From: an uncultured beta proteobacterium
Lineage (GTDB): Bacteria > Pseudomonadota > Gammaproteobacteria > Burkholderiales > Burkholderiaceae_C
DNA: 64,000 nt
Reading direction: 5' to 3'
Assembly (NCBI GenBank): GCA_903844215.1
Contig: CAIMSP010000120.1
Location: 1-64,000, forward strand
The notes beneath the pieces were generated by a model. It was not told the origin of the DNA. It ran no database searches and was given only the letters and a program-made list of their open reading frames with translations. Positions 44,690 through 61,292 of the stretch are shown one piece after another. Both the position numbers and the translations under genes were made by a program. Every line of letters begins with the position of its first letter. Positions within the stretch are counted from its first letter, which is position 1.

Positions 44690-45763
44690 CTAGGACGGCA
44701 GGAAGTCCACCGGCCAGGTCACGATCATCTGTTCCACGTCCTTGGCGCCGAAGTCGAACTGGCGGATGCGCGCCAGCAGTTTGGCTTCGAGTTCGGGCGT
44801 GTGCAACTCGCTGGCCTCGATGCGACACTCAAGCACCAGGCCCGAGGGCGCGATCGTGAGTTTCAACACGACCTTGCCTTGCAGGCCCGGCTCTTCGCGC
44901 AGCGCCCGGTTGTAGATCGCGTAGATGGCGCCCTTGTTGCGCTCGAACACCAGCTTGATGTCTTCGATCGAGCGCGAGGCTTTGCCGCTGGCGCCGCGCT
45001 TGACCGTGCCGCCCGCGCCGCCCGCCATGCCGCTGCCCGTGCCGTCGCCGCGGCCGCGCGCCCCACCACCGCCCGCGCCGCCGCCGCCGCCGCCGCCGAT
45101 CACGCCTTCGACCAAGGTGGTGGAGCGCCCGGCCAGACCGCCGCCGCCGGTGTTGCTGCTAAAGCCTGCGCTGTTGATGCCGCCGCTGCCGCCGGTGGCG
45201 TTGGAGGTGATCAGGGCGCGCGTGGGCACGCCGGCATCGGTGCCTGAGCCCACACCCACACCCACGCCCGTGCCCACGCCGGGCCCCTGCCTGATGTCCT
45301 GCTTGATTTGCACCGCGACCGGTGCGCCATGCAGTTCCGCCAGATCGTCCTTCATGGCGAGCAGGCCCACGCCGGCGACCCGGCGCCGCGCCGCCGCCAC
45401 CTCGCCCGCCGGCTTGTTCGGCACCGGTTGGCGCGCTTCGGGGATCGGCACCTCCTTGTCCTTGGCCAGCTTGCTCGCGGCTTTTTTGGCGGCTTCATCG
45501 TTCGCCGCTTGCAGCGGCTCGATTGGTTTCACGGGCGCGGCCAGCGGCTCGCGCTCGAGCACCAGCTTGGCCAGGCGCTCGGGCAACTCCTGCGCTTGCG
45601 AGCGGTCCGGTGGTGTCACGGGCAGCCAGGGCAGGGCGATGAACAGCACGGCGCAGGTGATCAGCACGCGCTGCGAAATGCGCCGAAAACGCAGCTCGTC
45701 GTCGGGTGAAACCGTCCACGGCAGCAGCGGCGCACGGAACGAGACCAGGGCCATGCTGTTCAT
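44690..45763 (-). CDS. AgmX/TonB-like energy transducer with glycine-rich linker
   Basis: 357 residues. A cytoplasmic start, one TM helix (RVLITCAVLFIALPWLPV, about 33-50), a Pro/Lys/Glu-rich linker, a long glycine-rich stretch (about 150-255, ending in GGGGGGGAGGGGARG) and a C-terminal AgmX/PglI-type domain (SIEDIKLVFERNKGAIYAIY, LQGKVVLKLTIAPSG, IRQFDFGAKD). This domain is found in Myxococcus gliding proteins and is related in architecture to TonB. It overlaps the ExbD gene by 4 bp and is last in the 16-gene operon. Likely transmits force from the ExbB/D motor across the periplasm. Confidence 0.85.
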   Translation of the reverse strand: MNSMALVSFRAPLLPWTVSPDDELRFRRISQRVLITCAVLFIALPWLPVTPPDRSQAQELPERLAKLVLEREPLAAPVKPIEPLQAANDEAAKKAASKLAKDKEVPIPEARQPVPNKPAGEVAAARRRVAGVGLLAMKDDLAELHGAPVAVQIKQDIRQGPGVGTGVGVGVGSGTDAGVPTRALITSNATGGSGGINSAGFSSNTGGGGLAGRSTTLVEGVIGGGGGGGAGGGGARGRGDGTGSGMAGGAGGTVKRGASGKASRSIEDIKLVFERNKGAIYAIYNRALREEPGLQGKVVLKLTIAPSGLVLECRIEASELHTPELEAKLLARIRQFDFGAKDVEQMIVTWPVDFLPS

Positions 45764-46254
45764 GATTCAAACCTCTGGCGCACGGCAAACGAGACGTCGC
45801 TGAAATTGGCGCGGGCGCTGGTGACCATGATCTTGCGCAGCAAGCGGTAGGGAATGTCCTTGTCGCCCATGATGGTCAGGCGCTTGCTCTGGGCCTCGTT
45901 TTCCTTGCGGATGACCTGGCGCTTGGCAAGCAGATCGAGCTCCGCCTTGAGCGGCGCGATCAGTTCGCTGTCGGCCGCGAGCACGTCGGCCACCAGCGCC
46001 ACGCGACGCCCGTCCACCGAGATCTCCTGCGCGCTCACGACCACGACCACGGTGTCGCGCGGGCTGGTCTGGGCCACCGACTCGGGCAGGCGCACGGATT
46101 TTGGGCTGGGCAGGGTTTCCACGCCACCCGAGTTGGAGAGCAGGAAGAAGATCAGGATCGTGAACACGTCGATCAGCGACACCAGGTTCATGTCCACCAT
46201 GCTCTGGTTGCGGTTGCGCCGTTCGGCGCGTTTTTGCAGTGGCGTGAGTTTCAT
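45760..46254 (-). CDS. ExbD/TolR-family stator protein with TM aspartate
   Basis: 164 residues. One N-terminal TM helix (NLVSLIDVFTILIFFLLSNS) with Asp29 at the proton-binding position of ExbD/TolR, then a periplasmic domain (EISVDGRRVALVADVL, LTIMGDKDIPYRLLRKIM). Overlaps its paralogue upstream by 4 bp and the AgmX-like gene downstream by 4 bp. With the TolQ-like subunit it should form a proton-driven motor. Confidence 0.9.
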   Translation of the reverse strand: MKLTPLQKRAERRNRNQSMVDMNLVSLIDVFTILIFFLLSNSGGVETLPSPKSVRLPESVAQTSPRDTVVVVVSAQEISVDGRRVALVADVLAADSELIAPLKAELDLLAKRQVIRKENEAQSKRLTIMGDKDIPYRLLRKIMVTSARANFSDVSFAVRQRFES

Positions 46255-46769
46255 GGTGCGGGCTTGGGTGCGCCATCGCCGGTGCGGCGCGGCGCGTCCC
46301 CAATGGAGATGTTGGGAAACAGTTCGGAGCGCACCATGGTGGCGCCCTGCGCCATGTGGCCGGCGCGGATCGCATCCATCACCTGCACCAGCGTGTCGTA
46401 CGGGGTGTCGGGCTCGGCCAGCACCGTGGCGTCGAGCTTGTCCGGAAAGCGGCTCTTGAGCTGTTCGATCAGCGTGTGCAGCGCGCGCACATCGGGACCG
46501 GTGGCGGTGGCGGGAATGCGCTCGATCAGGCCGCCGATGCGGTCTCCCACCTCCAGCGCCTGCACCCGCACGACCACCTCGAGTTGCAGATTCGCGCCCG
46601 TGAGTTTTTCAATTTTCTCGGACGACTGCGCGGGCAGCGTCAGGTCGATCACCGCCAGGCGCGTGAACACGGCGGTCGAGAGCAGGAACGGCACCAGCAC
46701 CACGATCAGGTTGATGAAGGCGGTGATTTCGAGGTGGGCCGCCTCTTTGCGAAGACGTCGGATGCGCAT
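46251..46769 (-). CDS. second ExbD/TolR-family protein, TM aspartate replaced by Asn
   Basis: 172 residues. One TM helix (LEITAFINLIVVLVPFLLST) aligns gap-free with the paralogue next door, but the position of the essential Asp is Asn20. The periplasmic part has the ExbD-like PDTPYDTLVQVMDAIRAG and IDLTLPAQSSEKIEK. It is encoded between the TolQ-like and Asp-bearing ExbD genes. It is probably a structural partner that does not carry protons itself. Confidence 0.87.
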   Translation of the reverse strand: MRIRRLRKEAAHLEITAFINLIVVLVPFLLSTAVFTRLAVIDLTLPAQSSEKIEKLTGANLQLEVVVRVQALEVGDRIGGLIERIPATATGPDVRALHTLIEQLKSRFPDKLDATVLAEPDTPYDTLVQVMDAIRAGHMAQGATMVRSELFPNISIGDAPRRTGDGAPKPAP

Positions 46770-46778
46770 GATGCCAAC

Positions 46779-47432
46779 TCAGTGCGGCTGGGACGGTTCG
46801 GCGCGCAGGCGCTGCACCAGGTTTAGGAAACTGATCTTGGCGGCTTCGAGTCCGTCCACGATTTCGGCCGTCATGGCCTGCAGGAAGGAGTGGATCAGCA
46901 GGAACGGGATCGCCACCATGAGGGCGAAGGCCGTGTTGTTCATGGCGATGGAAATACTGGCTGAGAGCATCTCGGCCTTCTCTGCCGGATTCACCTGCGA
47001 CACGGCGGTGAAGCCCTTGATCAGGCCGATGATGGTGCCCAGCAGCCCCACCAGCGTGATCACGTTGGCAAAGGTGGCGATGTAGTGGGTGCGCTTTTCC
47101 AGGCGCGGCACGATCTCCATCATGCCCTCTTCCATGGCGGCGTCGTAGTCTTCGCGCCGGCCCGGGCTTTGCATGCGCAGCAGGCCGTTGTTGACGATCT
47201 TGCCGATGGCCGCGTCCGAGGCTGCGGTGATGCCCTGCACTTCCTTGAACTGGCCCTTTTGCAGCAGCGGCAGCACCTTGCTCCAGATCGTGCGGTTCTG
47301 CGTGCGCGCCTTGGTGAGGAAGAGGAAGCGCTCGATGGCGATGGTCAGGCCCAGCGCCATGATGAGCAGACTGGGGTAGATGAAGAAGCCGCAATCCTGG
47401 AAGAATTTGATGGCCGTGTTGAGGGTGTTCAT
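46779..47432 (-). CDS. MotA/TolQ/ExbB-family proton channel protein
   Basis: 217 residues. N-terminal TM (FFIYPSLLIMALGLTIAIER), cytoplasmic loop, and two further TMs with the conserved NVITLVGLLGTIIGLIKGF and AMNNTAFALMVAIPFLLIHS. Forms the ring of a PMF-driven motor around ExbD/TolR dimers. Located 42 bp after a small secreted protein gene and 9 bp before the Asn-type ExbD gene. Two-ExbD arrangement matches the AglR-AglQ-AglS motor of Myxococcus gliding. Confidence 0.92.
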   Translation of the reverse strand: MNTLNTAIKFFQDCGFFIYPSLLIMALGLTIAIERFLFLTKARTQNRTIWSKVLPLLQKGQFKEVQGITAASDAAIGKIVNNGLLRMQSPGRREDYDAAMEEGMMEIVPRLEKRTHYIATFANVITLVGLLGTIIGLIKGFTAVSQVNPAEKAEMLSASISIAMNNTAFALMVAIPFLLIHSFLQAMTAEIVDGLEAAKISFLNLVQRLRAEPSQPH

Positions 47433-47474
47433 GCTGGGGTTCTCCGGTGAAAAATGCTGGGTGGATTGACAGGT

Positions 47475-47807
47475 CTATTTGGCCGCTGGCGGCGCCGGCG
47501 CAGTGGCCGGCGCGGCGGGCAAGGCAGACGCGCTGGCCGTGGGCGTCGGGGTGAGCGCTGCGTACTGCAATTGGCGGCGCAACACGTCGCGGTCCACGGG
47601 GCTGAGCGTCTCGTCGAGCACGCTGAGCAGCGGACGCGCTGCCAAGTCGCCGGGCAGAGGCTTTTTCCACGGCACGATGTAGAGCACCTTGGGCAGCTCG
47701 CGGTTGCCGATGATCTGGGTGCGGTCCACGTCGGCACGGTCCTGCGCCAGCGCCGACGCCGCGCACCAGCCGGCGGCGCTGGCCAAAACAAGGCGGGTGA
47801 ATTTCAT
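47475..47807 (-). CDS. small exported protein of unknown function
   Basis: 110 residues from the ATG at 47807, which overlaps the end of the large TPR gene by 4 bp. A signal peptide (RLVLASAAGWCAASALAQD) precedes a short conserved-looking core (NRELPKVLYIVPWKKPLPGD, LLSVLDETLSPVDRDVLRR) and an Ala/Pro/Thr-rich C-terminal tail. I do not recognise the family. Its position between the TPR scaffold and the motor genes suggests a periplasmic accessory of the complex. Confidence 0.75.
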   Translation of the reverse strand: MKFTRLVLASAAGWCAASALAQDRADVDRTQIIGNRELPKVLYIVPWKKPLPGDLAARPLLSVLDETLSPVDRDVLRRQLQYAALTPTPTASASALPAAPATAPAPPAAK

Positions 47808-50800
47808 GGCTTCTCCTTGGTGCTGTCCTGCGCGCCGGCAAGCTGGCGCGTCGCGGCCTCGGGCTTGCGCGTCTTGAGCTCGGCCACCCACTTCGCCACC
47901 ACCGGGTCGCTGCCCGGCGTGAGCGCCAGGTAGCTTTCAAACTGCTCCAGCGCGATGCCTGGCTGGCCCAGATAGAGGTCGCTCAGCACACCGAAATTCA
48001 GATGCGACAGCGCATCCTTGGCGTCCAGCGCGATGGCGCTCTCGTAGGCCAGCTTGGCCTGGGCAAACTGGCCGTCTCGCCGATAGGCCAGCGCGAGCTG
48101 ATTCAGTGCGGCCGGCTGCTGCGGCAGGCGCTGCGCCGCCTGTTCCAGCTCGGCCAGCGAGCCTGCCGTTCGGCTTTCATCGACGCGCTCGCTTTTTCCG
48201 TAGCGCACCGGCAGCAACTCGCGCAGGGCGTCAAAACTGCTCTTGACCCAGGCGTCGTAAATGCCCTGGGTGGCCAGGCGCGCGTTGGCCTGGTGCAGCT
48301 CGGCGGCCTTTTCCTCAAACGGATAGGCCTGCTCTTCGAGCATCACGTTGTATTGCTCGAGTTCCAGTTTCTTTAATTTCTTCGGGCGCTCCGAAGTCAT
48401 CAAGGCCTTGCCGAAATCGCGGTACACGCTGGCGCTGTGAAAGGTGGCGGCGCTCACCACGTCGGCCACGCCGTAGTCGCTGGCCACGGCATAGGCTTGG
48501 AGCGCCTCCTGCATCTTGGCCTTCTTCAGCTTGAGCTGCTTTTGCAGCGGCTCCTTGAGCGCAATCTGGCGGTAGGCCTGTGCCACCGGCTGCGCCAGCG
48601 CCAGCGCGGCGCTGGCGCCCAGATAGCGACTGCGCTCGCTGCGCTGCGCGCCTGCGCCCTGGTCGGCGTTGAAGATCTCTTTCAGCAGCGCCAATTCGCG
48701 CGCCGCGTGGCCGCTGTCGTGGGCGCTGCGCGCCAGACGGTAGCGTGCCTCCAGTGCCGGCATCAGCGGCTGCGGGTTGAGCAACAGATAGCGCTCATAG
48801 GTCTTCTGCGCCGCGGCGCGGGCGCCGGCCTTGTCATACAGCTCGGCCGACTGCCAGAGTGCGTCGCGGGCCAGGTCGGGATCCTTGGCGCTGGCGGCGA
48901 TGCGCTCGAGTTCGCCGGCCGCGCTGGCCCACTGCGCCTGCTCGGTATAGGCCAGCGCGAGCTTGGGCCCAAGCTGCGCTTGCAGCGCGTGGCCGGGAAA
49001 GCGCTGGCGGAAATCTTCCAGCGTGCGCGCCGCACCGGCCCAGTCCTTCAGCGCGAGCCGGGCTGCGGCCGCATCGTATTGCGCGCTGGCGGCGGTCGTC
49101 GACAGCGGCGCCACGCTGGCCACGCGCTCGAAGGCGCGCACCGCCTGGTCGAGCTGGTCGTCGGCGCGCAACTGCTCGCCTTGCTTGTAGATGGCGGCGG
49201 CCTGACGCTCGACCAGCTCGTTGCGCGCCGCGTCCGTGGGCGCCGTGAGTTGCAGCACCTCGGTGTAGGCCGCTTCGGCGCGCGCATACTCGCCGCGCTC
49301 GAACGCCAGATGCGCGATCACGCTCCAGGCCACGCGCCGTTGGGCGTCGCTGGCGCGCGTGGGCAGGTCCAGCAACTGCTGCGCGACCGCCAGCGCCTGA
49401 TCGCCCTCGTGCAGCGCGTACAGCGTGTCGGCGGCGTCGGCCAACACCGCTGCCAGCCGCGCGTCGCTGGGGAAGGTCTTGGCAAAGCGCAGCGCGCTGT
49501 GCACGCCGGCGCGCTGCAGCGCCGCCCCATCGGCCTGCGCCTGCTTGCGCTGTTGCGCCAGGCTGAGCAGCGCGGCGTAACCGGCGTCGGCGCCGCGCTC
49601 ATGGGCCGGGTACTGGTAGGCCGTGCGTTCGTATTCGATCGTGGCCTCTTCATAGTGCGCGTCCTCGAACAGCAGTTCGGCCAGCAGGAAATTGTTTTGC
49701 GCGGCCTGCGGGTCCTTGGGAAATTCTTCCAGGTAGCTGCGGTACCAGTGCACCGCCTGCTGGTAGTCGGCCGTGCTCTTGCTTTGCTGCGCGCTGGCGT
49801 GGTAGTAGCGCGCCAGCTCGGCCAGATGGGTCTTGACCAGCGGCTGTGCCGCCTCCCAGCCTGGCGCATTGGCGCGGCGGAATGCGCCTGCGGCGCCGTA
49901 GTGCGCGACGTAGTCCTTCTTGGCTTCGAGCGCGAGTTTGGCAAAGCCGTTGTGCTCGTAGATGCCGATCACGCGCGCCTGCAATATCGGCGCTTGGGCG
50001 TGCAGCGGATTCAGGCGCGCGAACAGGCCGAAGCTGTCGGCCGTGTCTTTCACGCGCTCCTGTTTGAGGTAGAGCTCGCCGAGCTCCTGGTACACGCGGA
50101 ACTCGTAGCCGCGACGCAGCGGCGAGTCGATGTAGGCCGCGATGGATTCGGCCCCCTGCAGGCTGGCCAGGCTCAGACTGGTGACGCGAAAGCTGTCCTC
50201 CACCAGCTCGCGCTCGGCGCGCGACAGGCCCGCGAGTTCCTCCAGCGGGGCGTCGCTGTTGCGTCCACCCAGTTTGAGATCGAGCACGCCAAAGAAGGAC
50301 TGCAGCGCGTCGTCCAGCCGCCCCTGTTTGAACAGCGACCAGCCTTGCATGTACAGCGCGCGGTCGTAATACGGGCCGCTCACGCCCGAGGCGCACACCG
50401 TGGCATAGGCCTTGTGCGCGCCGGGAAAGTTGCGCGCCGCGAACAGCAGCTCGCCACGCCGAAACTGTGCCTCGTCGCGCAGCGGGGTGGCGGGGTAGTC
50501 CTGCACCAGACGGTCCAGCGTCTTGAGGGCGGTCTGCGATTCGCCGCCCTGGTCATAGGCCCGCGCCAGTTGATAGAGCACGCGGTCGTTGGCCGGATCG
50601 CCGGGGTAGCTCTTGAGAAATTCCTGGTAGCGGCCGACCGCGCTGCGGTAGTCGGCGGCCTGCAGCGCCTCGCCGGCACCGGCGCGTTTGTCGGCCAGAT
50701 CCATTTCGAGGTCGCCGATGCGGCGCATCGCTTCGGGCCGCTGGGGTGCCAGCGGCGCGATCTCCAGGAACCGGGTGTAGGCCGCGATCGCCTGGGCCTC

Positions 50801-50950
50801 GTCGGCGCGCACGCGGGTCTGCGTGGCGTTGGCCAGCGGGCGCGCGCTCAGGCTGGCCAGCGTGGGCGCGTTGTCGCTCGACCCCTGCGGGCTGGCGCAG
50901 GCCGTGAGCAGGCACAGGGTCGCCAGGCTGGCGCTACGGCTTGGCAGCAT
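47804..50950 (-). CDS. large TPR-repeat outer-membrane lipoprotein
   Basis: 1048 residues from the ATG at 50950. Lipobox LLTACASP near residue 18, then TPR-like repeats through nearly the whole length (DRVLYQLARAYDQGGESQTA, YDRALYMQGWSLFKQGRLDD, AALNQLALAYRRDGQFAQAK and ALSHLNFGVLSDLYLGQPGI). It overlaps the upstream gene by 17 bp and the downstream one by 4 bp. A TPR lipoprotein is also part of the Glt/Nfs machines of Myxococcus; a scaffold role between outer membrane and periplasm is inferred. Confidence 0.85.
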   Translation of the reverse strand: MLPSRSASLATLCLLTACASPQGSSDNAPTLASLSARPLANATQTRVRADEAQAIAAYTRFLEIAPLAPQRPEAMRRIGDLEMDLADKRAGAGEALQAADYRSAVGRYQEFLKSYPGDPANDRVLYQLARAYDQGGESQTALKTLDRLVQDYPATPLRDEAQFRRGELLFAARNFPGAHKAYATVCASGVSGPYYDRALYMQGWSLFKQGRLDDALQSFFGVLDLKLGGRNSDAPLEELAGLSRAERELVEDSFRVTSLSLASLQGAESIAAYIDSPLRRGYEFRVYQELGELYLKQERVKDTADSFGLFARLNPLHAQAPILQARVIGIYEHNGFAKLALEAKKDYVAHYGAAGAFRRANAPGWEAAQPLVKTHLAELARYYHASAQQSKSTADYQQAVHWYRSYLEEFPKDPQAAQNNFLLAELLFEDAHYEEATIEYERTAYQYPAHERGADAGYAALLSLAQQRKQAQADGAALQRAGVHSALRFAKTFPSDARLAAVLADAADTLYALHEGDQALAVAQQLLDLPTRASDAQRRVAWSVIAHLAFERGEYARAEAAYTEVLQLTAPTDAARNELVERQAAAIYKQGEQLRADDQLDQAVRAFERVASVAPLSTTAASAQYDAAAARLALKDWAGAARTLEDFRQRFPGHALQAQLGPKLALAYTEQAQWASAAGELERIAASAKDPDLARDALWQSAELYDKAGARAAAQKTYERYLLLNPQPLMPALEARYRLARSAHDSGHAARELALLKEIFNADQGAGAQRSERSRYLGASAALALAQPVAQAYRQIALKEPLQKQLKLKKAKMQEALQAYAVASDYGVADVVSAATFHSASVYRDFGKALMTSERPKKLKKLELEQYNVMLEEQAYPFEEKAAELHQANARLATQGIYDAWVKSSFDALRELLPVRYGKSERVDESRTAGSLAELEQAAQRLPQQPAALNQLALAYRRDGQFAQAKLAYESAIALDAKDALSHLNFGVLSDLYLGQPGIALEQFESYLALTPGSDPVVAKWVAELKTRKPEAATRQLAGAQDSTKEKP

Positions 50951-52817
50951 GCGGTGCCTCCGGTTGGGCGCTGGCACGGTCGTACAGCTGCGCGACGGCG
51001 AAGCGCGCCTGCGCCGAGTAGGCCTGCAGCCGCTGCTGCTGCAGCAGCAAGCTGGCCACGGCCAGATCCTGCACGGCGCTTTGCTGTTCCTTGGCCAAGG
51101 CGGCGACCTGCGTGCCGAGGCTTTGCAGCAAGGGGTCGAGCGCGGCGATGCGCTGCTCGAAGGCGTCAAAGCGCACCGGTTCGTCGCGCTGCGCCTGCGC
51201 CAAGGCCGCGTCGCGCTGGCTTGCCTCGCGCAGTTGCGCGTCCACGGCTTGGAGCTCCCGGGTGGCGTCCCAGATCCGCTGTGGCCGGTCCTGGGCCAAC
51301 TGCCAGGTGAGGGCGCCGGCGGCCAGGCGCACGCGCTCGCGGTAGGCTTGCAGCTCGGGGTCCGGGCCCGCGACCGTGGCCGAAGCGCTGGCCACGCGCT
51401 GCAGCAAATCGAGCTGGCGCGCATCGGCGAAGGCGGTGGGGTCGGACGCGTCGATGCCGCGCGCCAGTTCGGCGGCGACGCTGTCGCGGCGCGATCGCAG
51501 ACCGGCCATCTTGCCTTGCTGGACCTCGGCCTGCAGCTGCGCCAGCCGCTGGGCAAAGGCCTTGCGCCGCGTGGCCAGCATGTCGCCAAAGACCGAGAGC
51601 TTTTCGCGCCAGGCGTCGAGATGGCGCGCCAGAAAGCGCAGGTCGCGGTAGTTCTTCAGCGCTTCCTGAAATTCGTTTTGCGCCAGCACCTGCAACAGAT
51701 GCTCGGGATGGGGCACGGCGGGGAGGGCGCGCACGCTCCAGAACCAGCCCATCTCGTCACCCGGGTTGCGCTCGATCAGGCTGTCAACCAGGCTGCCGGA
51801 GCGGATCGCGCTGATCGATTCGTCCAGCGCCAGGCGTTCGCGCTCGAACGAGCTCAGCGCCCCCTGGTAGCGCTCCAGCGCCTGGCCGTATGCGCCGAGT
51901 TCGGCCCAGGCATAGGGCAGGGCGATTTGCGCCTCCAGCGCGGCCGCGTCGCTGCTGCTGCGCTGCGCCAGTTCGCTCCACGGGACCAGGGCCTGGCGCG
52001 GCTCCTTCAGCGCGGCGCTGGACCAACCCAGACCGAGCAGCGCCTTGTTCGCCTGCTGACCTTGCAGACGCACGCGCTGCAGGAAAGCGCGCGCCGCCAG
52101 CGGCTGCTTGTCGTTGAGTGCGGCAAAACCCAGTGCCACATTGGCGCGGTCGCGCAGGCTGCGCATTTCCTCGTCCTGCGCCCCCTGTTGGCCCAGGGCG
52201 TTGAGCACCGCCGTGCCGCCTGCGGCGTCGCCCGCCTTGATCAGCGCCACACCCAGGTTGAAGCGCGCAAAGCGCGCGCCAGCGGCCTTCTCGTCCACGC
52301 CCTCGAGCAACGTGGCCGCAGCGCTGTAGTCGCTGCGCGCCATCAGCACATTCGCCTGCAGCAGCACGCGGTCGTCCTGCAGTGCCGGGGGCAAGGGACT
52401 CTGGATGCGGCCCAGCGCCTGCTGCGCCTGCTCCAGGTAGCCGCGCTGGTAGGCGATCTTGGCCAGGTAGTACCAGGCGCGGTCGCGCACCGTCGCCGCG
52501 GCGCCCTGTTCGATGAGCTTTGCAAAAATCGCACCGGCCTCGCGCTGCAAGCCATAGGACAAGAGCAGGCCGCCGCGCAGCACCTCGGCTTCGTCCGCAT
52601 GCGGCGCCACCCGGTCGAAATGTTGCGCCACCATCAGGCTGGCGAGCGCCGTGAAGTAGTGGTCCTGAAAGAAGTGAAACAGCGTGTCGCCGTAGTGCAA
52701 AGCGCGGATCTCGCGCGGCGCCTCGTCGGCGCGCACCGGGCCCGCCAGCGCCAGCGCGGCGGCGGCAGCGAGCGTGCAGCGGCGCCAACTCAGACCAGCG
52801 AATCGGTTCGGCAACAT
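50934..52817 (-). CDS. exported helical-repeat protein
   Basis: 627 residues with a signal peptide (CTLAAAAALALAGPVRADE). The first part has TPR-like repeats (ARFNLGVALIKAGDAAGGTA, KALLGLGWSSAALKEPRQAL); the second half is rich in long helices with coiled-coil character (AFAQRLAQLQAEVQQGK, LAKEQQSAVQDLAVASLLLQ). No catalytic motif. Probably periplasmic and part of the machine with the adjoining TPR lipoprotein. It lies 6 bp after the 188-residue protein gene. Confidence 0.82.
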   Translation of the reverse strand: MLPNRFAGLSWRRCTLAAAAALALAGPVRADEAPREIRALHYGDTLFHFFQDHYFTALASLMVAQHFDRVAPHADEAEVLRGGLLLSYGLQREAGAIFAKLIEQGAAATVRDRAWYYLAKIAYQRGYLEQAQQALGRIQSPLPPALQDDRVLLQANVLMARSDYSAAATLLEGVDEKAAGARFARFNLGVALIKAGDAAGGTAVLNALGQQGAQDEEMRSLRDRANVALGFAALNDKQPLAARAFLQRVRLQGQQANKALLGLGWSSAALKEPRQALVPWSELAQRSSSDAAALEAQIALPYAWAELGAYGQALERYQGALSSFERERLALDESISAIRSGSLVDSLIERNPGDEMGWFWSVRALPAVPHPEHLLQVLAQNEFQEALKNYRDLRFLARHLDAWREKLSVFGDMLATRRKAFAQRLAQLQAEVQQGKMAGLRSRRDSVAAELARGIDASDPTAFADARQLDLLQRVASASATVAGPDPELQAYRERVRLAAGALTWQLAQDRPQRIWDATRELQAVDAQLREASQRDAALAQAQRDEPVRFDAFEQRIAALDPLLQSLGTQVAALAKEQQSAVQDLAVASLLLQQQRLQAYSAQARFAVAQLYDRASAQPEAPHAAKP

Positions 52818-54527: not shown

Positions 54528-54741
54528 AGCCGCCTCCTTGTACGCCGGTGGCGCCGCGCGCGCCTTCGCGCACTTCGCGTGCATGGGTGATATCCCTTTG
54601 CGCCAGCGGGTTGCGCCCCGCGTTCATCACCGGATCGGCCAGGCGCTCGCGCTCATAGGGCTTGACCCAGGGCTGGGTGGCGCAGGCGCCAAGCTGGGTC
54701 GCGAGCAGCAGGCCAGCGGCCCGGAGAATGGCAGTTTTCAT
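54514..54741 (-). CDS. DUF4266-type small lipoprotein
   Basis: 75 residues. Lipobox in LLATQLGACATQPW, then a conserved core WVKPYERERLADPVM with THAREVREGARG and a glycine-cysteine tail GGGCGCN. Overlaps the TlpA-like gene upstream by 4 bp and the DUF3570 gene by 14 bp. The paired C-terminal cysteines suggest metal or disulfide chemistry, possibly serviced by the adjacent thioredoxin-like protein. Confidence 0.85.
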   Translation of the reverse strand: MKTAILRAAGLLLATQLGACATQPWVKPYERERLADPVMNAGRNPLAQRDITHAREVREGARGATGVQGGGCGCN

Positions 54742-55268
54742 CGCAGCAGCTCCCGTATTTGGCGCTCGTATTCGTCTTCATAGCCGGCGTGAAAGCCCAG
54801 GTGCAAATAGCGCAAGCGGCCATCGCGGTCGATCAGCAGGGTCGAAGGCATGGTGCTCACGGCGTACCGATGGCTCACGGCCTTGTCCGTGTCCAGCAGC
54901 ACCGGGAAGGTCACGCCCATGCGCTTGGCCACCTCGGCCGCATGGCGCGCGTCGTCGTCGACGTTCACGCCCAGCAGCACGAAACCGGAGGCGCGGTATT
55001 TCGCGTACAGCTTGTTCAACTGCGGCATTTCCTCGCGGCAGGGGCCGCACCAGGTGGCCCAGAAATTCAGCATCACGACGCGCCCGCGCTGCTCCTGCAG
55101 CCGCAGATTCGGGCCATCAACGCTGCGCAAGCTGAAGTCTGGCGCTGCGGCTTGCAGCGCGGCCGCCTGCAGCGCCCCGCCCGAGCCGAGCAGCAAGGCG
55201 GCAGTCGCGCCCTGACGCAGCAGGCGGCGGCGCGTGAGCGGCAAGGCGCAAGAGGGATCGTTCTTCAT
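54738..55268 (-). CDS. TlpA-family periplasmic thioredoxin-like protein
   Basis: 176 residues. A twin-arginine-like leader (LTRRRLLRQG, hydrophobic section) is followed by a thioredoxin fold with the active-site motif WCGPC (NFWATWCGPCREE) and the cis-Pro region STMPSTLLIDRDG. TlpA/ResA-type proteins reduce apocytochrome or other periplasmic disulfides, which fits a cluster containing haem-motif lipoproteins and a Cys-tailed DUF4266 protein. Confidence 0.92.
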   Translation of the reverse strand: MKNDPSCALPLTRRRLLRQGATAALLLGSGGALQAAALQAAAPDFSLRSVDGPNLRLQEQRGRVVMLNFWATWCGPCREEMPQLNKLYAKYRASGFVLLGVNVDDDARHAAEVAKRMGVTFPVLLDTDKAVSHRYAVSTMPSTLLIDRDGRLRYLHLGFHAGYEDEYERQIRELLR

Positions 55269-55280: not shown

Positions 55281-55925
55281 TTAAAACGAGGCCGTCACGC
55301 CCGCGCTCAACTCGGGGTTTTGCGTGCTCTGGCGTTTGCCCAGCAGATCGAGCGCGAACAGGTGATCCCGCGCGTCAAACTGCAAGGCGAAGTGGTCGTT
55401 GAGATAGACCCGCAGGCCCGCGCCCAGGTTGAAGGTGGACTGGCGCTGCTGGTTGAACGAGCTGCTGCCCACGCCGCCGATCAGATAAAAGCTCATCGGC
55501 TTGGCGTTGCCGCGGCCGAGGAAGACTTCGCCGGGCAGCACGTTGTAGCCCACCGACAGGTTGTAGTAGCTCAGCTTTTCGCTCGCGGCGGGAAAGATGC
55601 CGCCGGGCAGCACCTGGCGAAACGTGGCATCGCTGACCTTGGTTTGCGCCAGCACCGCCTCGACGAAGAAGTCCTCGTTCACGTGGTAGCCCAGGCGCAG
55701 GCCGCTCACCGGACTGGAGCCGAAGTTCTGCGTCGCATAGCTGCCGGCGAAGGCGCCGATCTCGAAGTCGTTGGACGGGAAGCGCGGCAGGCGCACCTCG
55801 CGCCGATCGACCTGGGGCAGCACCACCTGGTCGGTGCTGGCCGGCGCGTCGGCCGCCGCCGCGCTCCAGCACGATGCGCAGAGTGCGGCGAGGACGATGG
55901 CGTGGCAAAGGGTTTTGGTGTTCAT
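55281..55925 (-). CDS. outer-membrane beta-barrel protein (Myxococcus-plus type)
   Basis: 214 residues. Signal peptide (IVLAALCASCWSAAAADA), conserved start VDRREVRLPRFPSNDFEIGA, then eight-strand-like barrel sequence (LRLGYHVNEDFFVEAVLAQ, VGYNVLPGEVFLGRGNAKP) ending in Phe (GVTASF). It resembles the barrel domain family found in paralogous sets in Myxococcus. Adjacent to a second barrel of the same kind; the two may form the outer-membrane part of the complex. Confidence 0.82.
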   Translation of the reverse strand: MNTKTLCHAIVLAALCASCWSAAAADAPASTDQVVLPQVDRREVRLPRFPSNDFEIGAFAGSYATQNFGSSPVSGLRLGYHVNEDFFVEAVLAQTKVSDATFRQVLPGGIFPAASEKLSYYNLSVGYNVLPGEVFLGRGNAKPMSFYLIGGVGSSSFNQQRQSTFNLGAGLRVYLNDHFALQFDARDHLFALDLLGKRQSTQNPELSAGVTASF

Positions 55926-55934
55926 GGTGGCGCT

Positions 55935-56732
55935 TTAGAAGAAGAAGGAAATTCCCGCTGTCGGCGCGCGAAACGTCGTGCTGCGGGTGTCGGAGACAAA
56001 GGCGGTGTACAGCGTGTAGTCGGCGCGCAGCACGAAGCGCTGGCTCAGGTAGTAGCGCGCACCCAGACTGGCGTTGGCCAGATTCGCGTCGCTCTGGTTC
56101 GCGCCCACCAGGCTGCTGTTCGGGAAGTTCTTCAGCTTGCCCACGCCGATGCTGAAGAAGGGCGAGAAGCGTCGATCCGACCAGGGGTCGGAGACGAGGT
56201 TGACGTGCCACAGATTGGTGCCGGCGAAAGCCCCCTGGACCTGGCCCAGCGTGGCTTCGACGGTGAGCGTTTCGCAGACGCGGTAGCTGCTCCACATCTT
56301 GAGCATCGGCTCGGCGTTGAAGCGCCCCCAGGCCACGCCGAGCTGCGCGCGCCGGCCCAAATAATCGTCCAGCACCAAGTCGCGAAACGGCTGGGTCTGG
56401 CCCGCGCCGGCGAGCGTGCTGCGCAACTGTTCGCGCTGCACCCAGCCCACCTGTGCGCCCTCGGTGCGCACCCGGTACCAGTCGGTGTGGCGCAACTCGA
56501 TCGTGATCCAGTGCTCGCGCGGCTCGACAAAGAACACCGGAAAGCCGCGTCCCGGACCGGTGCGCAGTTCGATGAACGGGTCGCTCACCTGCAGGCGCGC
56601 GCTGGCCTGGTCTGCGGCGTCTGCGGCCCGCGCCGGCGCGCTGCCCAGGGCGAACAGGCTGACGAGCGCCAGCAGGCTGGCGCTGAGGCCGCGTGCCAGG
56701 GCGGGATGGGCTTGCATGGGGCTGGGTCTCAT
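55935..56732 (-). CDS. SH3 domain plus outer-membrane beta-barrel protein
   Basis: 265 residues. Signal peptide (LLALVSLFALGSAPARA), a bacterial SH3-like domain (about 45-105: IELRTGPGRGFPVFFVEPR, VRTEGAQVGWVQREQL), then a barrel domain like the neighbouring gene product (LTVEATLGQVQGAF, GARYYLSQRFVLRADYTLY) ending in FFF. The SH3 part may bind peptidoglycan and fix the barrel. ATGA overlap with the upstream lipoprotein gene. Confidence 0.83.
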   Translation of the reverse strand: MRPSPMQAHPALARGLSASLLALVSLFALGSAPARAADAADQASARLQVSDPFIELRTGPGRGFPVFFVEPREHWITIELRHTDWYRVRTEGAQVGWVQREQLRSTLAGAGQTQPFRDLVLDDYLGRRAQLGVAWGRFNAEPMLKMWSSYRVCETLTVEATLGQVQGAFAGTNLWHVNLVSDPWSDRRFSPFFSIGVGKLKNFPNSSLVGANQSDANLANASLGARYYLSQRFVLRADYTLYTAFVSDTRSTTFRAPTAGISFFF

Positions 56733-57343
56733 AGCGTGTTGCAGCTGCCGGCGAGCGGATCGGTCGGCGTGAACATGGCGTTGGCGGCGCTGCTGAACTC
56801 GTCCTGGCCGCTGGGCATGGGGTGCGAGACCCAGTATTTGAGCGCCAGCACGTTCGCGTCGCTGGCGCTGGCGAAGATCAATCCGCCGCCATGCAGCACG
56901 CCCAGCAGCAAGGGCTTGTTCAGCAAGCGGCTTTGCGCGCTGTCGCCAATCACGGTCTCGCTCTGGGCGGTGTAGAAGTTCTTGTACATGTCGCTGTGGC
57001 GGATCACGTCGGGCGTGTTCGAGGCCAGGCTCAGGTCAAGGGGCAGCGCGCCGGGGACGATGCGAAAGGCGCCGCCGGCGCCGGTGATGTGGTTGTGGCA
57101 GCCGGTGCTGGCGCAGCTGTTGCTCGCGCCGGTGGCGCTGCCGGGCGTTGGCAGCAGGCTCAGAAAGATCGGGTTGATGCATTTCTGGAAATACACAAAC
57201 GACAGGTTCTGCCCGCCGCTGAGCGCCGGGTTGTTCACCGGCGCCGGATTGCCCAGCGGGTTCGAGCCGCCGCCGCAGGCCGACAGCGCGGCGATCACGG
57301 CCGCCGCAAGGCTGAGTTTCAAAGTGCGGCGCAGGGGCTTCAT
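56729..57343 (-). CDS. small lipoprotein with CX4CH haem-like motif
   Basis: 204 residues from the ATG at 57343; ATG 57355 in frame is possible. Lipobox LSAC at residue 23. Cys55 (FQKCINPIF) and a motif Cys77-x4-Cys82-His83 (SCASTGCHNH) with later His residues recall c-type cytochrome-like domains seen in secreted proteins, but the spacing differs from CxxCH. Whether haem is bound is open. It lies between the multihaem lipoprotein gene and the SH3-barrel gene. Confidence 0.72.
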   Translation of the reverse strand: MKPLRRTLKLSLAAAVIAALSACGGGSNPLGNPAPVNNPALSGGQNLSFVYFQKCINPIFLSLLPTPGSATGASNSCASTGCHNHITGAGGAFRIVPGALPLDLSLASNTPDVIRHSDMYKNFYTAQSETVIGDSAQSRLLNKPLLLGVLHGGGLIFASASDANVLALKYWVSHPMPSGQDEFSSAANAMFTPTDPLAGSCNTL

Positions 57344-57348
57344 CGGGT

Positions 57349-60336
57349 TCAGCATCCGGTGCCGATCCAGGCGGCGATGGTGTTGTAGTTGGCGCTGCCC
57401 ACGGGCAGGACCGCTGCGGCGCCGGAGGCGGCGTTGGCCGGGTGCGGCACGGTCGAGGGCTTGCTCAGCAGGTAGTTGGAGGCCGGCACGCAGGCGTTGT
57501 TGATCATCGTCAGCGTCACGTTGTAGTCGCCCACCGGGTCGCCGGTCAGCACGAAATGGTTGTTTGTGAAGGAGCTGCCGGGCGGGATCGGCGCGTTCGC
57601 GCTGCCCGTGGCCTGGTGGCACAAGGCCGCGCAACTGGCGCGCAGGATTGGGAACACCTGGGCCACGAAGCTGGTCTGGCTCAGACCGGTGACGCTCCTC
57701 ATGCCGTTGCCTGCGGCGAAGGGATCGTTGTAGTACTTGCTGCCGGTGTCCACCCACTCGGCCAGCAGGCGCTTCTCGGCGGCGTTGAGCAGTCGAGCGT
57801 GGTCCGGGGCGGAGGCGCCCGGGCTGGGGAAGGCCGCTTGCGCGTCGGCGTCGGACATCAGCCGTTGTCCGGCCAGGATTTCGATCAGCCGGCTCTTGCG
57901 CGCCAGCCCCAGTGCGTCGCCTTCGCTGGCCATCGTGTCCACCCGCGCCGGGCCGCGCTGTATCACCCGCACGCCGTCTTTGATCGTGGTCAGCGGCAGG
58001 CCCGACTTGGCGTCGAGCAAGGGGTTGCCGACGGTCAGTCTTTCGTACGAATCGACGCGACCGGTGCCGGCGATGGTGCCGCTCAGGTCGAGTTTTCCGG
58101 GGTCGTTGTGGCAGGCGGTGCAGGTGGCGGCGCCGCGGTCGCGGCTCCACAGTGGCTGGATGTGCTCCGGGTAGTTGATGATGCCGTTGACCGGCACCAA
58201 GGTGGCCAGATCGTTGGCCGGGACGAGGTTGCCGCTGTAGCGCAGGGCGATCGGTGTGCGGGCGGTGACGCCGGCCTGGCTGGTGTCGGCCCAGACGTCG
58301 GTGAACAGCGGGTCCGCACTGAGCAGCAAACGCGCGGGGTCGAGCCGGGTGCGCGTCGCGGCCATGGTCTCGCCGGCCTGATGCGCGCCGGCCATGGCCG
58401 CCAGCAGCGCCGCCGGTTGGGTGTTCACCACGGTTCCCGAATTCAGCGCGCCGCCGCGGCGCGGGCTGTGACAGCCGTCGCAGGTGCGGTGCTCGCCCGG
58501 GCGCACCTGGATCCAGTTGGTGTGGGTTTGAAACGCGCGCCCCTGGGCGTCGGTCACGGCCAGCGCAATCGGCGTGTCGGCCGGCAGCGTGAGCTTGAAC
58601 GAGCCGTCCGGCTCGAGCGGCGCGTAGCCCAGGATCTGCTGCATTTCAAAATCGGTGTTGCCGATGGCGGCGCGCGTGCCGGTGGTGCTCACCGGCGGGG
58701 CAATGGCGCGCACCACGCGGATGAAGCGCGCCGGGGCACAGCCGTAGGCCGCGTTCGCCGGGTCCTTGATGCGCAGCAGGTCCGCCACCAGGGCGCGTGT
58801 GTCCAACGGGTCGGTGGGCGTGGTCTTGGCAATCGCGCTGACGCAACCGGGCGCCAGGTCGGCCGCGCCGAGCACCGCGTCGCCCATGCGCCCCAGGTCG
58901 TCGGTGTCGTACACGCTGCGTACTTCGAGCAGACCCAGTCCCTGGGCGGCCAGCGCCGCATCGGCCAGCGTGGGGCTGAAGGCGCTGGGCTCGGCGCGCG
59001 CCATCAGCGCCACCGGGTGCGTGTACATGAAGCCGGCCGGGGGCGCGGCGATGTTCAGCATGGTCTGCTGCGCCGGGTCGAACATGTAGATGGCATAGGT
59101 CGGCGCCACGTTGTCTTGCAGCGTGTCGGTCTGCACGGCGTCCACCAGTCGATTGGCGTCGCTCAGGCGGCTGACTTCGGCGGCGCTGAGCGTGGCGCAG
59201 GCCACGACCACGCCGGCGCGGCTGACTTCGCACGGCGTGTAGCCGAGCAGGACGCGGTCACTGCCGTCCCACAGCGGGTAGGGCGTGGTGATGCGGCCAT
59301 AGGCCGAGAGTCCGGTGCCGTGGTTCAGCGCCTGGGCCATGGCCTGGCGCTGGCCGCCCACGGCGGGCACGCCCGGGTTCACCGGGGTGTTCTGCTCCGA
59401 GTAGTTGGCCGCGTCGATGAACATCAGTGCGCCGCCCTCGTGGGTGCGCGACAGCGGCATCAGATCGGTCGATACAAAGCCCTTGTACTTGCCGCCCGGG
59501 TCCATGTCGCGCGGGTGCAGGAAGCTGTTGCCCTCGCTGTGCGCGCCGTAGAGCACGAACAGATTGGTGCCGTCGGGGCGCACGGTGAAGATCTTGAAGT
59601 GGTTGCGTCCGCCCACGTGGTCCCAGCGCGAGAACATGATGTCGCCATTGGGCCGCACCACCGGGCTGCGGTCGTGGCTCTGGTTCACCGAGATCTGCTG
59701 GATGGCGCTGCCGTCGGCGGCCATGGTGTGCAGGTTGAAGACCCGCTCGCGCTCGTATTCGTCCAGCGCAAAGTAGCTGCGGCCCAGCGCCTGGTTCAGG
59801 CTCGATGTGGTCTGGCGGTTGGAGGTGAAGACCACGCCCGCGCCGCCCGGAAGGTAGCTCGGATCGACATCGTCGGCGCCGGCGGAACTGGTGAGCCGGC
59901 GAAAGGTTCCGGCGCTCAGGCCGCCCACGCTCATGTCGTATTCCCAGATGTTCCAGCGCCCGGTGCAAGCGTTCTGGCCGCCCGTGGTGGCCGTGTTGGA
60001 AGTCGGGCAGTTCATCGCGAAGATGATCTTCTTGCCGTCGTAGGACACGTCCGGCCCCGACACATCGCCCAGGCCTTGCGTGAACTGCGCCGTGAGGTTG
60101 TGCTCGGCGGCGCTGGGCGAGGCTTTGGCGCGCACGATCAGGTCGCCCCCGGCCGCGCTGGGCGCGCCATTCGTGGGGTTGGCGCGCATGGTGTTGACGC
60201 GCTTGGCGTAGGCGATGGCGACATCGCCCTGAATGGCGCCGGTGGCCGAGTCGCTCGCCGTTCCGGTGCAGGCGGCCAGGCAGGCCCAGAGCGCGAGTGC
60301 AGCGGCCCAGCGGGCGCGGATCAAAGGCTTGTCCAT
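57349..60336 (-). CDS. large multihaem lipoprotein with PD40 propeller and HzsA-like region
   Basis: 995 residues from the ATG at 60336, with AGGAG upstream. Lipobox LAAC near residue 23. The first third has PD40/TolB-type propeller blades (GPDVSYDGKKIIFAMN, DVDPSYLPGGAGVVFTSNR, SPVVRPNGDIMFSRWD). The middle resembles hydrazine synthase alpha-type proteins (EPDGSFKLTLPADTPIALAV, HTNWIQVRPGEHRTCDGCH). Haem motifs: CDGCH at 619-623, CTACH at 739-743 and CAALCH (CX3CH) at 902-907. It should be an exported electron-transfer protein; hydrazine synthesis is not implied. 33 bp follow the apbE gene. Confidence 0.82.
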   Translation of the reverse strand: MDKPLIRARWAAALALWACLAACTGTASDSATGAIQGDVAIAYAKRVNTMRANPTNGAPSAAGGDLIVRAKASPSAAEHNLTAQFTQGLGDVSGPDVSYDGKKIIFAMNCPTSNTATTGGQNACTGRWNIWEYDMSVGGLSAGTFRRLTSSAGADDVDPSYLPGGAGVVFTSNRQTTSSLNQALGRSYFALDEYERERVFNLHTMAADGSAIQQISVNQSHDRSPVVRPNGDIMFSRWDHVGGRNHFKIFTVRPDGTNLFVLYGAHSEGNSFLHPRDMDPGGKYKGFVSTDLMPLSRTHEGGALMFIDAANYSEQNTPVNPGVPAVGGQRQAMAQALNHGTGLSAYGRITTPYPLWDGSDRVLLGYTPCEVSRAGVVVACATLSAAEVSRLSDANRLVDAVQTDTLQDNVAPTYAIYMFDPAQQTMLNIAAPPAGFMYTHPVALMARAEPSAFSPTLADAALAAQGLGLLEVRSVYDTDDLGRMGDAVLGAADLAPGCVSAIAKTTPTDPLDTRALVADLLRIKDPANAAYGCAPARFIRVVRAIAPPVSTTGTRAAIGNTDFEMQQILGYAPLEPDGSFKLTLPADTPIALAVTDAQGRAFQTHTNWIQVRPGEHRTCDGCHSPRRGGALNSGTVVNTQPAALLAAMAGAHQAGETMAATRTRLDPARLLLSADPLFTDVWADTSQAGVTARTPIALRYSGNLVPANDLATLVPVNGIINYPEHIQPLWSRDRGAATCTACHNDPGKLDLSGTIAGTGRVDSYERLTVGNPLLDAKSGLPLTTIKDGVRVIQRGPARVDTMASEGDALGLARKSRLIEILAGQRLMSDADAQAAFPSPGASAPDHARLLNAAEKRLLAEWVDTGSKYYNDPFAAGNGMRSVTGLSQTSFVAQVFPILRASCAALCHQATGSANAPIPPGSSFTNNHFVLTGDPVGDYNVTLTMINNACVPASNYLLSKPSTVPHPANAASGAAAVLPVGSANYNTIAAWIGTGC

Positions 60337-60368
60337 GGCGGTCTCCTGAAAGGGGGAAGGGCGTCGCA

Positions 60369-61292
60369 TCAACGTGGCTTCGCGCTGAGGCTGGGCGCCA
60401 TGAGGCCGCAGGAATAGTGCAGCGCGCCCTGCGCGTCCACCACCACCGCGTCCACGTTGTCCTGGGCTTCGATCAGCCGCATGCCCTGGTTCAAGCCCAG
60501 GATGAACACCGCCTTGGACAGGGCCTCGCAGGTCAGGCCGTCGTCGGCCAGGATGCTCACGCTGCGCACACTGCGAGGCGAGCACCCGCTTGCCGGGTCG
60601 ATCAAATGGTGAAAGCGCTGGCCGTCGGCTTCGAAAAAACGTTCGTAGTCGCCCGAGGTCGAGATCGACGTGTTCTCCAGCGGCAGCAGCGCCACCAGCG
60701 CGCCCGGCTGGCGCGGATCGCGGATGCCGATGCTCCAGGGGCGTCCACGGCGGTCGCCGATGACGCGCGAATCGCCGCCCGCGCTCACCATCGCGTGCGC
60801 TATGCCGAACTGATGCAGGATGGCCGTGGCGCAGTCCACGGCGTGGCCCTTGGCAAAGCCACCCAGGTCGATGCACATGCCCGGGCGGGCGAAGCGCACG
60901 GTGCGCGCACGCGCATCCAGCAGCAGATGGCGGTCGCCCACGGCGGCGCGCGCCAGCTGCAACTGCGCCGCGTCCGGGCGGATCCCCAGACGGTAGTCGT
61001 ACAGGCGGCCGACGGCGGCGTAGGTGATGTCGAACGCGCCCGCGCTGAGGCGTGAAAAGTGTTTCGCGCGAACCAGCAGGCGCGTCATCTCGGGCGTGAG
61101 CGCAACCGCTGCGGCTGCGGCCTGGCGATTGATGCGCGAGAGCTCGGACTGCGGCTTGTGCGGACTCATGGCCTGGTCGATGCGGTGCATCTCGGCCATC
61201 ACCGCGTCCATCGCGGCTTCACCCCGGGACGCCTCGTCGCACCAAAGCTCCACCGTGATCGCCGTGCCCATGATGGCTTCTTGGCGCTGCAT
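60369..61292 (-). CDS. apbE: FAD:protein FMN transferase ApbE
   Basis: 307 residues from the ATG at 61292; an in-frame ATG at 61499 adds 69 residues (376 in total) that do not look like a signal peptide. ApbE moves FMN from FAD to Thr/Ser in target proteins. Seen are EAIMGTAITVELW, the FAD-binding GMCIDLGGFAKGHAVD and VSAGGDSRVIG, and the metal-site region STSGDYERFF with HHLIDPASG. First gene of the operon. No clear flavinylation target motif was found by eye in the neighbours. Confidence 0.9.
   Translation of the reverse strand: MQRQEAIMGTAITVELWCDEASRGEAAMDAVMAEMHRIDQAMSPHKPQSELSRINRQAAAAAVALTPEMTRLLVRAKHFSRLSAGAFDITYAAVGRLYDYRLGIRPDAAQLQLARAAVGDRHLLLDARARTVRFARPGMCIDLGGFAKGHAVDCATAILHQFGIAHAMVSAGGDSRVIGDRRGRPWSIGIRDPRQPGALVALLPLENTSISTSGDYERFFEADGQRFHHLIDPASGCSPRSVRSVSILADDGLTCEALSKAVFILGLNQGMRLIEAQDNVDAVVVDAQGALHYSCGLMAPSLSAKPR

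Follow-up and report, generated by a model that had tools for sequence, protein, structure and literature searches.

The window analysed here comprises the first 64,000 nucleotides (forward strand) of contig CAIMSP010000120.1 (C120) from an uncultured beta proteobacterium (GCA_903844215.1), whose draft genome has 4.05 Mb in 187 contigs. On its minus strand, from 61292 down to 44690, sixteen genes form a single block. A redox set comes first (apbE, an HzsA-like lipoprotein, cytL, an SH3-like/barrel protein, a TIGR04565 barrel, a TlpA-like thioredoxin, DUF4266 and a DUF3570 barrel) and is followed by the motor genes: exp188, two large tetratricopeptide-repeat (TPR) proteins, exp110, ExbB, two ExbD and an AgmX-domain transducer. 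With the starts as chosen, the junctions span -17 to +42 bp, eight of the fifteen being overlaps of 4-17 bp and seven being gaps of 6-42 bp. The original prediction, drawn from the letters of the DNA without database searches, had proposed that such an operon joins an Agl/Glt-like motor to a haem/flavin/thiol module. All of its genes are present with exact coordinates, the overlaps it described are borne out at those eight junctions, and domain searches found ApbE, HZS_alpha, redoxin, DUF4266, DUF3570, OMP_b-brl, TPR, MotA_ExbB, two ExbD, TIGR04565 and AgmX/PglI. Judged by sequence, the motor set and the redox set are encoded as one tightly packed block and are inherited together, and the view that the two halves belong together is strongly supported.

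Gene order and co-inheritance

A scan with an exp188 alignment, taking one genome per species, confirmed at least 521 relatives, the best 80 of which were kept. All sixteen genes stand in the same order on one strand in 39 of these 80 named loci; a further 18 are collinear but interrupted by contig ends, and 23 differ. The synteny survey that had been proposed has thus recovered the order in other genomes more often than chance would, and a chance neighbourhood of two operons is rejected by this recurrence together with the co-occurrence in genomes described below. The full loci belong mostly to Burkholderiales (among them Piscinibacter, Rhizobacter, Rubrivivax, Ideonella, Caldimonas, Leptothrix, Methylibium, Rhodoferax, Sapientia), with L186, L191 and L213 in addition. 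Ideonella oryzae, Caldimonas caldifontis, Sapientia aquatica, Piscinibacter caeni and Rhizobacter sp. OV335 are among the named carriers, and the Burkholderiales-type affiliation first proposed for the window fits its nearest named relatives. Across exp188, ExbB and both ExbD, the closest relative among the best 80 (L134) shares 94% identity with the window. Among the 23 differing loci, 15 have hzsA, barrel or DUF3570 genes beside the motor, some divergent and some with apbE between DUF3570 and exp188, and in eight (L170, L188, L194, L195, L197, L198, L207, L209) the fetched stretch shows nothing of the redox set beyond thioredoxin and/or apbE. Loci of this kind also occur in records under the names Candidatus Planktophila (Actinomycetota), Janthinobacterium and Vitreoscilla (L203, L210 and L164); L203 and L164 group with sequences from proteobacterial metagenome-assembled genomes in the motor tree, and the three contigs are possibly misnamed or misbinned.

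Co-occurrence was counted in a class sample of 369 genomes by profile searches with the exp188 and HzsA-like alignments. HzsA-like proteins occur in 52 genomes (E<=1e-40), representing 42 of 272 genera, exp188 in 83 (E<=1e-5) and DUF4266 in 90. At these thresholds exp188 is present in 51 of the 52 hzsA genomes, as against 32 of the 317 without hzsA (Fisher 3e-39), and the sole hzsA genome lacking it (G233) has its hzsA match in two pieces. The exp188 scores are bimodal, with a gap between 2.8e-68 and 1.7e-56, and the strong group comprises 51 genomes, 48 of which carry hzsA. With the cut placed at E<=1e-60, a value set after the gap had been seen in the table, those 48 are common to the 52 hzsA and 51 exp188 genomes (p 1e-51). 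The original prediction would have been refuted had the two halves never been found together in other genomes, and these counts speak against that. The hzsA genomes outside the strong group are G233 and, with exp188 at 1e-46 to 1e-52, G255, G275 and G391. The strong-exp188 genomes without hzsA are G216, in which barrels, thioredoxin, DUF4266 and DUF3570 adjoin the motor (L232), G292, with DUF4266 about 1.5 kb away, and G536, which is 71% complete and has exp188 at a contig end. Within families, a single member of each of f178, f187 and f204 combines hzsA with strong exp188, while two lack hzsA and have weak exp188 only, and f68, f144 and f181 are discordant through G216, G292 and G536; this comparison covers the listed genomes and, as those without any match are not all listed, is less than a full contrast.

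The association holds where the genes are not adjacent. The halves may lie on separate contigs or far apart yet in the same genome (G274, G401, G365 and G472 are examples), separated motor blocks often start with a thioredoxin gene, and apbE shifts position but remains with the system. Among 40 regions of our choosing around DUF4266 matches, 28 have hzsA, SH3/barrel, barrel, DUF4266 and DUF3570 together (two of them, L047 and L048, showed no thioredoxin), and 13 of the 28 continue within the fetched stretch with exp188, tpr1 and tpr2 at least; the other 12 of the 40 have a distant DUF3570 type without hzsA. The window's tpr2, used as the sole query, matched 0 of 199 other genomes of an order sample. 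Given that the named scan finds many Burkholderiales, this sample missed carriers within the order, where the distribution is patchy.

Two variants of the redox half can be told apart by what adjoins hzsA. The window variant has an HzsA with a third haem motif, together with cytL. In the gammaproteobacterial variant, hzsA adjoins a different pair of genes in many loci (for example L035:372-4147, L046:16417-19998 and L069:16210-19842). One encodes a cytochrome that matches DUF1585 weakly, under the cut-off (in L046 not at all), and the other a lipoprotein of 816-840 aa that combines two CxxCH with a LamG-like lectin domain; the pair is divergent from hzsA in all seven loci read. Of 87 hzsA loci, 81 had at least 1.8 kb upstream, and removal of double counts (L040/L229, L036/L231) left 79: 45 have cytL only, 31 the cytochrome/lectin pair only, three neither (L034, L043, L050) and none both, so that the two are mutually exclusive. 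One variant cytochrome, used as a query against the window's own genome, found no match, which is a weak test. Cytochrome/lectin proteins of this kind (DUF1585, DUF1588, LamG), which we take to be planctomycete-type, are approached by the weakly DUF1585-like cytochrome and LamG di-haem lipoprotein of the gammaproteobacterial variant, whereas none was found beside hzsA in the window variant, which has cytL and the third HzsA haem motif instead.

The motor core also occurs alone. Of 20 further regions, again chosen by us, 11 (L214-L217, L219-L221, L223-L225, L233) hold the core without the window's redox genes, in the order exp188, tpr1, tpr2, small TPR, exp110, ExbB, ExbD, ExbD, AgmX; the small TPR is fused in L217, L233 ends before AgmX, and L225 has a weak thioredoxin-like match on the other strand. 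The other nine are L218, with exp188 and apbE and no motor match, L222, with an adjacent redox block, and L226-L232, which are motor blocks of hzsA- or barrel-bearing genomes. In L218 (9974-11685) exp188 adjoins apbE with no motor match in 20 kb, and the genome concerned (G482) has a second exp188. A motor tree was built from four joined proteins of 81 loci, with the label 'split' given to L170, L188, L194, L195, L197 and L209, for which the fetched stretch showed no redox half. Five standalone loci form one supported group and six stand on long branches among redox-linked loci; a division of redox-linked and standalone motors into two clades is consequently rejected. This scatter makes repeated gain or loss of the redox set probable, and the existence of cores free of redox genes marks the redox version as a specialised form.

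The encoded proteins

All sixteen genes are on the minus strand; signal peptides were called by eye and lipoboxes by pattern. The first gene, apbE (60369..61292; Pfam ApbE E 1.4e-77), encodes an FAD:protein FMN (flavin mononucleotide) transferase. Its start was taken from motif and relatives, the frame being open upstream to 61499, and at the chosen start there is no obvious signal peptide; among 25 displayed loci, one is present in gammaproteobacterial loci and none is obvious in Burkholderiales. The HzsA-like lipoprotein (57349..60336) has a propeller-like part, an HZS_alpha haem domain (PF18582 E 4.3e-19; 69.3 bits, cut-off 26.6) and second and third haem motifs, the three motifs being CDGCH, CTACH and CAALCH. 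Its lipobox Cys23 and two CxxCH are invariant in 18 aligned sequences, the window included, and the third haem motif is present in 38 of the 39 full loci. The overlapping cytL gene (56729..57355, by 7 bp with hzsA) encodes a small lipoprotein with a single haem-like motif, CASTGCH; this CX4CH is found in 38 of the 39 full loci and is replaced by CxxCH in L191. The expected two lipoproteins with haem-like motifs are thereby accounted for. In L147 (Piscinibacter aquaticus, 1900-6000) the best hzsA frame has 569 aa and no haem motifs, with the other 15 genes in place, and this copy looks broken or misassembled.

A profile search aligned hydrazine synthase alpha (PDB 5c2v, E 3.4e-17) with the propeller, the middle haem domain and the C-terminal part of the HzsA-like protein. 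The differences are nonetheless considerable, since the window's protein is a lipoprotein, reaches 48.6 of the 800 bits demanded by the hydrazine synthase alpha equivalog, and is accompanied by no beta or gamma subunits among the 16 genes. In the anammox enzyme (PMC12607021), Tyr591 is a haem ligand four residues after the haem His; none of 79 HzsA-like relatives with a CxGCH motif has Tyr at that position. Hydrazine synthesis is rejected on these grounds.

The next two genes encode small outer-membrane barrels. The exported SH3-like and barrel protein (55935..56732) is conserved in order and matches SH3 and OMP_b-brl below cut-off and TIGR04565 at 22/60 bits; its neighbour (55281..55925) belongs to the OMP_myx_plus family (TIGR04565 134.7 bits, cut-off 60). 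The TlpA/ResA-like thioredoxin (54738..55268) has WCGPC (Redoxin E 4.3e-31; ResA-like below cut-off), and the DUF4266 lipoprotein (54514..54741; PF14086 E 1.2e-19) ends in GGGCGCN. The DUF3570 outer-membrane barrel (53403..54527; alternative start 54584; PF12094 E 3.5e-32) is the predicted substrate of ApbE. Set against the two [S/T]GA[S/T] flavinylation motifs, the window has SNAS and TSAS, with the target Ser retained and the Gly lost. Most Burkholderiales share SNAS as the first motif, gammaproteobacterial relatives mostly have SSAS, TSAS or SGAS there, and the distant DUF3570 type has SGAS/TGAS-like motifs; among 22 aligned proteins chosen from 63, Ser105 is invariant and Ser113 nearly so. 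A structure model gives a barrel of, by our count, 16 long strands, with turns of 2-4 residues alternating with longer loops and both Ser within or next to the loop that joins strands 3 and 4. With low confidence, as residues 110-112 have a predicted local distance difference test (pLDDT) below 50, this loop may be placed on the outer side or in the lumen. The model matches many outer-membrane barrels with query template-modelling (TM) scores of 0.31-0.48 among 50 listed rows, so only 'barrel' is claimed.

The motor side begins with exp188 (52824..53390), an exported protein used here as the marker of the motor block through a 14-sequence alignment. No Pfam or NCBIfam family matched it, and its predicted fold, a helix and an eight-strand sandwich (model pLDDT 80), has no PDB match at E<=0.001; the best structural matches (adhesion/fimbrial proteins, allantoin synthase, transthyretin) were too weak and were left unused. 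The two large TPR-type proteins that had been foreseen are both present, with a refinement for the larger. The exported tpr1 (50934..52817; TPR_19 E 2.2e-5) is conserved in order, and tpr2 (47804..50950), a lipoprotein with TPR/YfiO domains, is a fusion. In 60 of 86 loci the counterpart of its C-terminal ~120 residues is a gene of its own, encoding a small TPR protein, while in 26, the window included, the two are one open reading frame of more than 700 aa (the 86 are the loci with a match, one identical pair being counted twice). The tpr2 protein passes the YbgF TPR model (94.2 bits, cut-off 90.1) through four separate TPR stretches in 1048 aa, which we read as an effect of its many repeats, and weakly matches the PorW/SprE model of the type IX secretion system (T9SS; 39.2/250 bits). 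The small exported exp110 (47475..47807) matched no Pfam or NCBIfam family, is conserved in order, and has counterparts of 89-125 aa across relatives.

The proton-channel subunit ExbB/TolQ (46779..47432; MotA_ExbB E 6.1e-24) has two motif Thr conserved in 84 of 84 loci. The first ExbD/TolR (46251..46769; ExbD E 3.5e-12) has Asn at the position of the transmembrane Asp, as in 73 of 83 loci (Asp in 10), while the second (45760..46254; ExbD E 2.7e-13) keeps the Asp, as in 81 of 81; one identical pair of loci is counted twice in these figures. In Myxococcus, AglQ D28N is reported to abolish proton conductance and motility. The residues of the ExbD pair suggest asymmetry, with one protonatable Asp. 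The block closes with the TonB-like transducer (44690..45763), which has one N-terminal hydrophobic stretch by eye and a C-terminal AgmX/PglI domain (NF033768 60.7 bits, cut-off 40).

Regarding the boundaries, the promoter break that would have pointed to two unrelated operons was not found, yet a simple scan for sigma-70-like promoters in 44100-62300 returned none at all against 1.5 expected, neither inside nor upstream of the operon, so neither a break nor a start is demonstrated; terminator-like sites in the same stretch were at chance level (11 against 13.4 expected). A 998-bp gap separates apbE from the next upstream minus-strand gene, an Fe-S protein with Fer4 and CCG domains. Inside it, divergent just upstream of apbE, lies a single receiver-domain response regulator (61851-62285, plus strand), a possible regulator of the operon. 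Downstream on the same strand are a family-3 solute-binding protein and a GGDEF-EAL protein (41744-43834 and 43831-44583, minus strand).

Known systems and rival explanations

Each half has been described separately. In Luciano 2011 (PMC3169522), an Agl/Glt core of GltC, GltD, GltE, GltG, AglR, AglQ, AglS and one further gene, of unknown function, is found in one betaproteobacterium, several gammaproteobacteria, Geobacter and Fibrobacter, its genes forming a single cluster in gamma- and betaproteobacteria. The authors considered it unlikely that motility is driven by this core alone, and Wartel 2013 allows that it may be basal transport machinery. The window resembles it in having one TolQ-like and two TolR-like subunits (MotA_ExbB, ExbD twice; Pfam) and an AgmX-type transducer. 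Its order of large TPR, small TPR, small exported protein, motor and AgmX parallels gltD-gltE-gltF-gltG (Table 1 of the same paper). Sizes also correspond, with tpr1 at 627 aa and tpr2 at 1048 aa against GltC at 673 and GltD at 1191; the counterpart of GltE (471 aa) is the small TPR, fused in the window, and that of GltF (89 aa) is the exp110-type protein. The GltG model matches the window transducer at 1.1e-6 (27.6/650 bits) and five relatives at 4e-9 to 2e-18 (best 66.5/650), and the GltJ model matches at 0.0011 (18.2/450 bits) and at 2e-5 to 9e-14, respectively; both extend beyond the tail in relatives (in L035, residues 17-324 with GltJ, 9e-14). The sole small TPR gene scanned (L223) matches GltE at 1.2e-11 (44.3/225 bits), and PilW scores 66.8 there.

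The proposed relation to Agl/Glt is therefore supported by these model matches, the AgmX domain and gene order, and is tempered by the fact that all GltG, GltJ and GltE matches, in window and relatives, fall far below the equivalog cut-offs; it was judged from models, order and sizes. The window differs in that its 357-aa transducer has no FHA domain (Pfam), in exp188 and exp110, which are without known family, and in the linked redox set, which the available text of Luciano 2011 does not mention for the core. A plain Tol-Pal or TonB system is rejected for the motor subunits, which are far below the corresponding equivalog cut-offs (best tolQ 50.8/221 bits, tolR 27.6/127.3, exbD 19.2/216).

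The redox half, in turn, resembles the DsbD-type flavinylation clusters of ApbE, thioredoxin, DUF4266 and DUF3570 described in Meheust 2021 (PMC8238504), where modification of DUF3570 by ApbE is shown for a Chlorobium protein. The window has all four together, with a DUF4266 ending in CxC and the motif Ser of DUF3570 kept. DsbD is encoded on another contig of the window's own genome, and because that study counts 316 clusters without DsbD, its non-adjacency does not exclude membership. The window differs in its divergent DUF3570 and in the addition of HzsA-like and CX4CH lipoproteins, two small barrels and the motor block; the main text of Meheust 2021 speaks of no ExbB, AgmX or hydrazine. In the open-licence PMC literature, searches turned up no paper whose title or abstract connects the Agl/Glt core to a redox set of this kind.

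That one redox-specialised trans-envelope machine underlies the inheritance pattern is by far the best account of it, and is very probable. The fuller reading, in which this conserved machine is a redox-specialised Agl/Glt-type core whose motor energises an outer-membrane redox complex, is given a probability of roughly 0.5, its mechanism being inferred. Several observations weigh against it. The best-80 set was picked by likeness to the window's exp188 and so favours window-like systems, and the p-values of 3e-39 and 1e-51 ignore the relatedness of genomes. The protein exp188 is a marker only, as L218 illustrates, and the 11 core loci without redox genes indicate that the motor does not need them everywhere. 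DUF4266 occurs without hzsA in 42 of 90 genomes. On the redox side, no signal peptide is obvious in the ApbE of the displayed Burkholderiales loci, even though the protein it presumably modifies is an outer-membrane barrel, most of this DUF3570 clade has Asn or Ser in place of the Gly of the flavinylation motif, and DsbD is found in 10 of 14 control genomes, so its presence in the window's genome tells little. Substrate, electron donor and physical contact between the halves are proposals only.

A surface-transport or gliding machine like Agl-Glt or Nfs of Myxococcus, with surface polysaccharide or adhesin complexes as the cargo of the motor and with redox proteins that do no more than modify this cargo, would draw on the recurrence of motor, AgmX domain, TPR proteins and barrels, the gltD-E-F-G parallel, the transport role suggested in Wartel 2013, and the lectin-domain cytochrome of gammaproteobacterial variant loci. 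It is nonetheless unlikely, given the low GltG and GltJ scores and the doubts of Luciano 2011 about motility, and it leaves the near-obligatory redox set unexplained where hzsA is present. Slightly less likely is a system for extracellular electron transfer, or for metal oxidation or reduction, whose motor only assembles or recycles an outer-membrane conduit. The haem-motif lipoproteins and the DUF3570 barrel, with FMN predicted on the side of its long loops, are consistent with it, as are a relative in 'Bacterium MnTg04' and the 25 DUF3570-type clusters that Meheust 2021 (PMC8238504) links to an iron transporter. Yet HzsA-like proteins have only 2-3 haem motifs each, and neither an MtrCAB-type conduit nor an iron transporter is among the 16 genes.

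A shade more doubtful again is a secretion or assembly machine that takes haem lipoproteins and lectin cytochromes through the outer membrane, with thiol and flavin proteins aiding maturation. Barrels, TPR lipoproteins and motor do resemble export machines, cargo-like lipoproteins stand in fixed linkage, and tpr2 has its PorW/SprE match; that match, however, is limited to TPR stretches, and the core exists without cargo. An arrangement of two functionally separate modules, held together by co-regulation or a shared niche, is improbable to a greater degree than any of these. It gains from the DUF4266 genomes without hzsA and from the 32 of 83 exp188 genomes without it, but must contend with a 16-gene order fixed over many genera, with co-occurrence that persists where the halves lie apart, and with a discrete strong-scoring exp188 group that goes with hzsA.

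Proposed mechanism and significance

In the redox-specialised machine as we picture it, proton motive force would drive the ExbB-ExbD-ExbD' motor, and the AgmX-type protein and TPR chain would transmit force to the outer-membrane barrels. Reducing equivalents would pass from cytoplasmic thioredoxin through the DsbD encoded on another contig to TlpA and the CGC thiol of DUF4266, thence to FMN attached by ApbE to the DUF3570 barrel, and would end at the haem lipoproteins of the outer membrane, HzsA-like and CX4CH, unless electrons flow along this chain the opposite way. By gating, recycling or moving the outer-membrane complex, the motor would cause an extracellular substrate (a polymer, a mineral or surface polysaccharide) to be both chemically changed and moved. 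The interpretation offered in the original prediction is thus supported, with surface motility and extracellular electron transfer standing as proposals drawn from sequence. A more specific version, in which the motor is mechanically coupled to the thiol-flavin-haem chain and cycles the flavinylated barrel or haem lipoproteins between a periplasmic electron source and the surface, is speculative and unlikely. Were it true, electrons would cross the outer membrane by moving parts and not along a fixed haem wire, which would constitute a new class of machine and would name the job of the proteobacterial Agl/Glt core in redox-bearing lineages.

The halves were already known, through Luciano 2011 (PMC3169522) and Meheust 2021 (PMC8238504); no paper joining them was found in the open-licence PMC literature. 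If the motor acts on the redox proteins, proton motive force would be coupled to extracellular chemistry in a new way. More broadly, the sixteen-gene block gives HzsA relatives outside anammox bacteria a home, and through the near-obligatory co-inheritance of the HzsA-linked forms, two modules of 'unknown function' acquire one shared, testable job.

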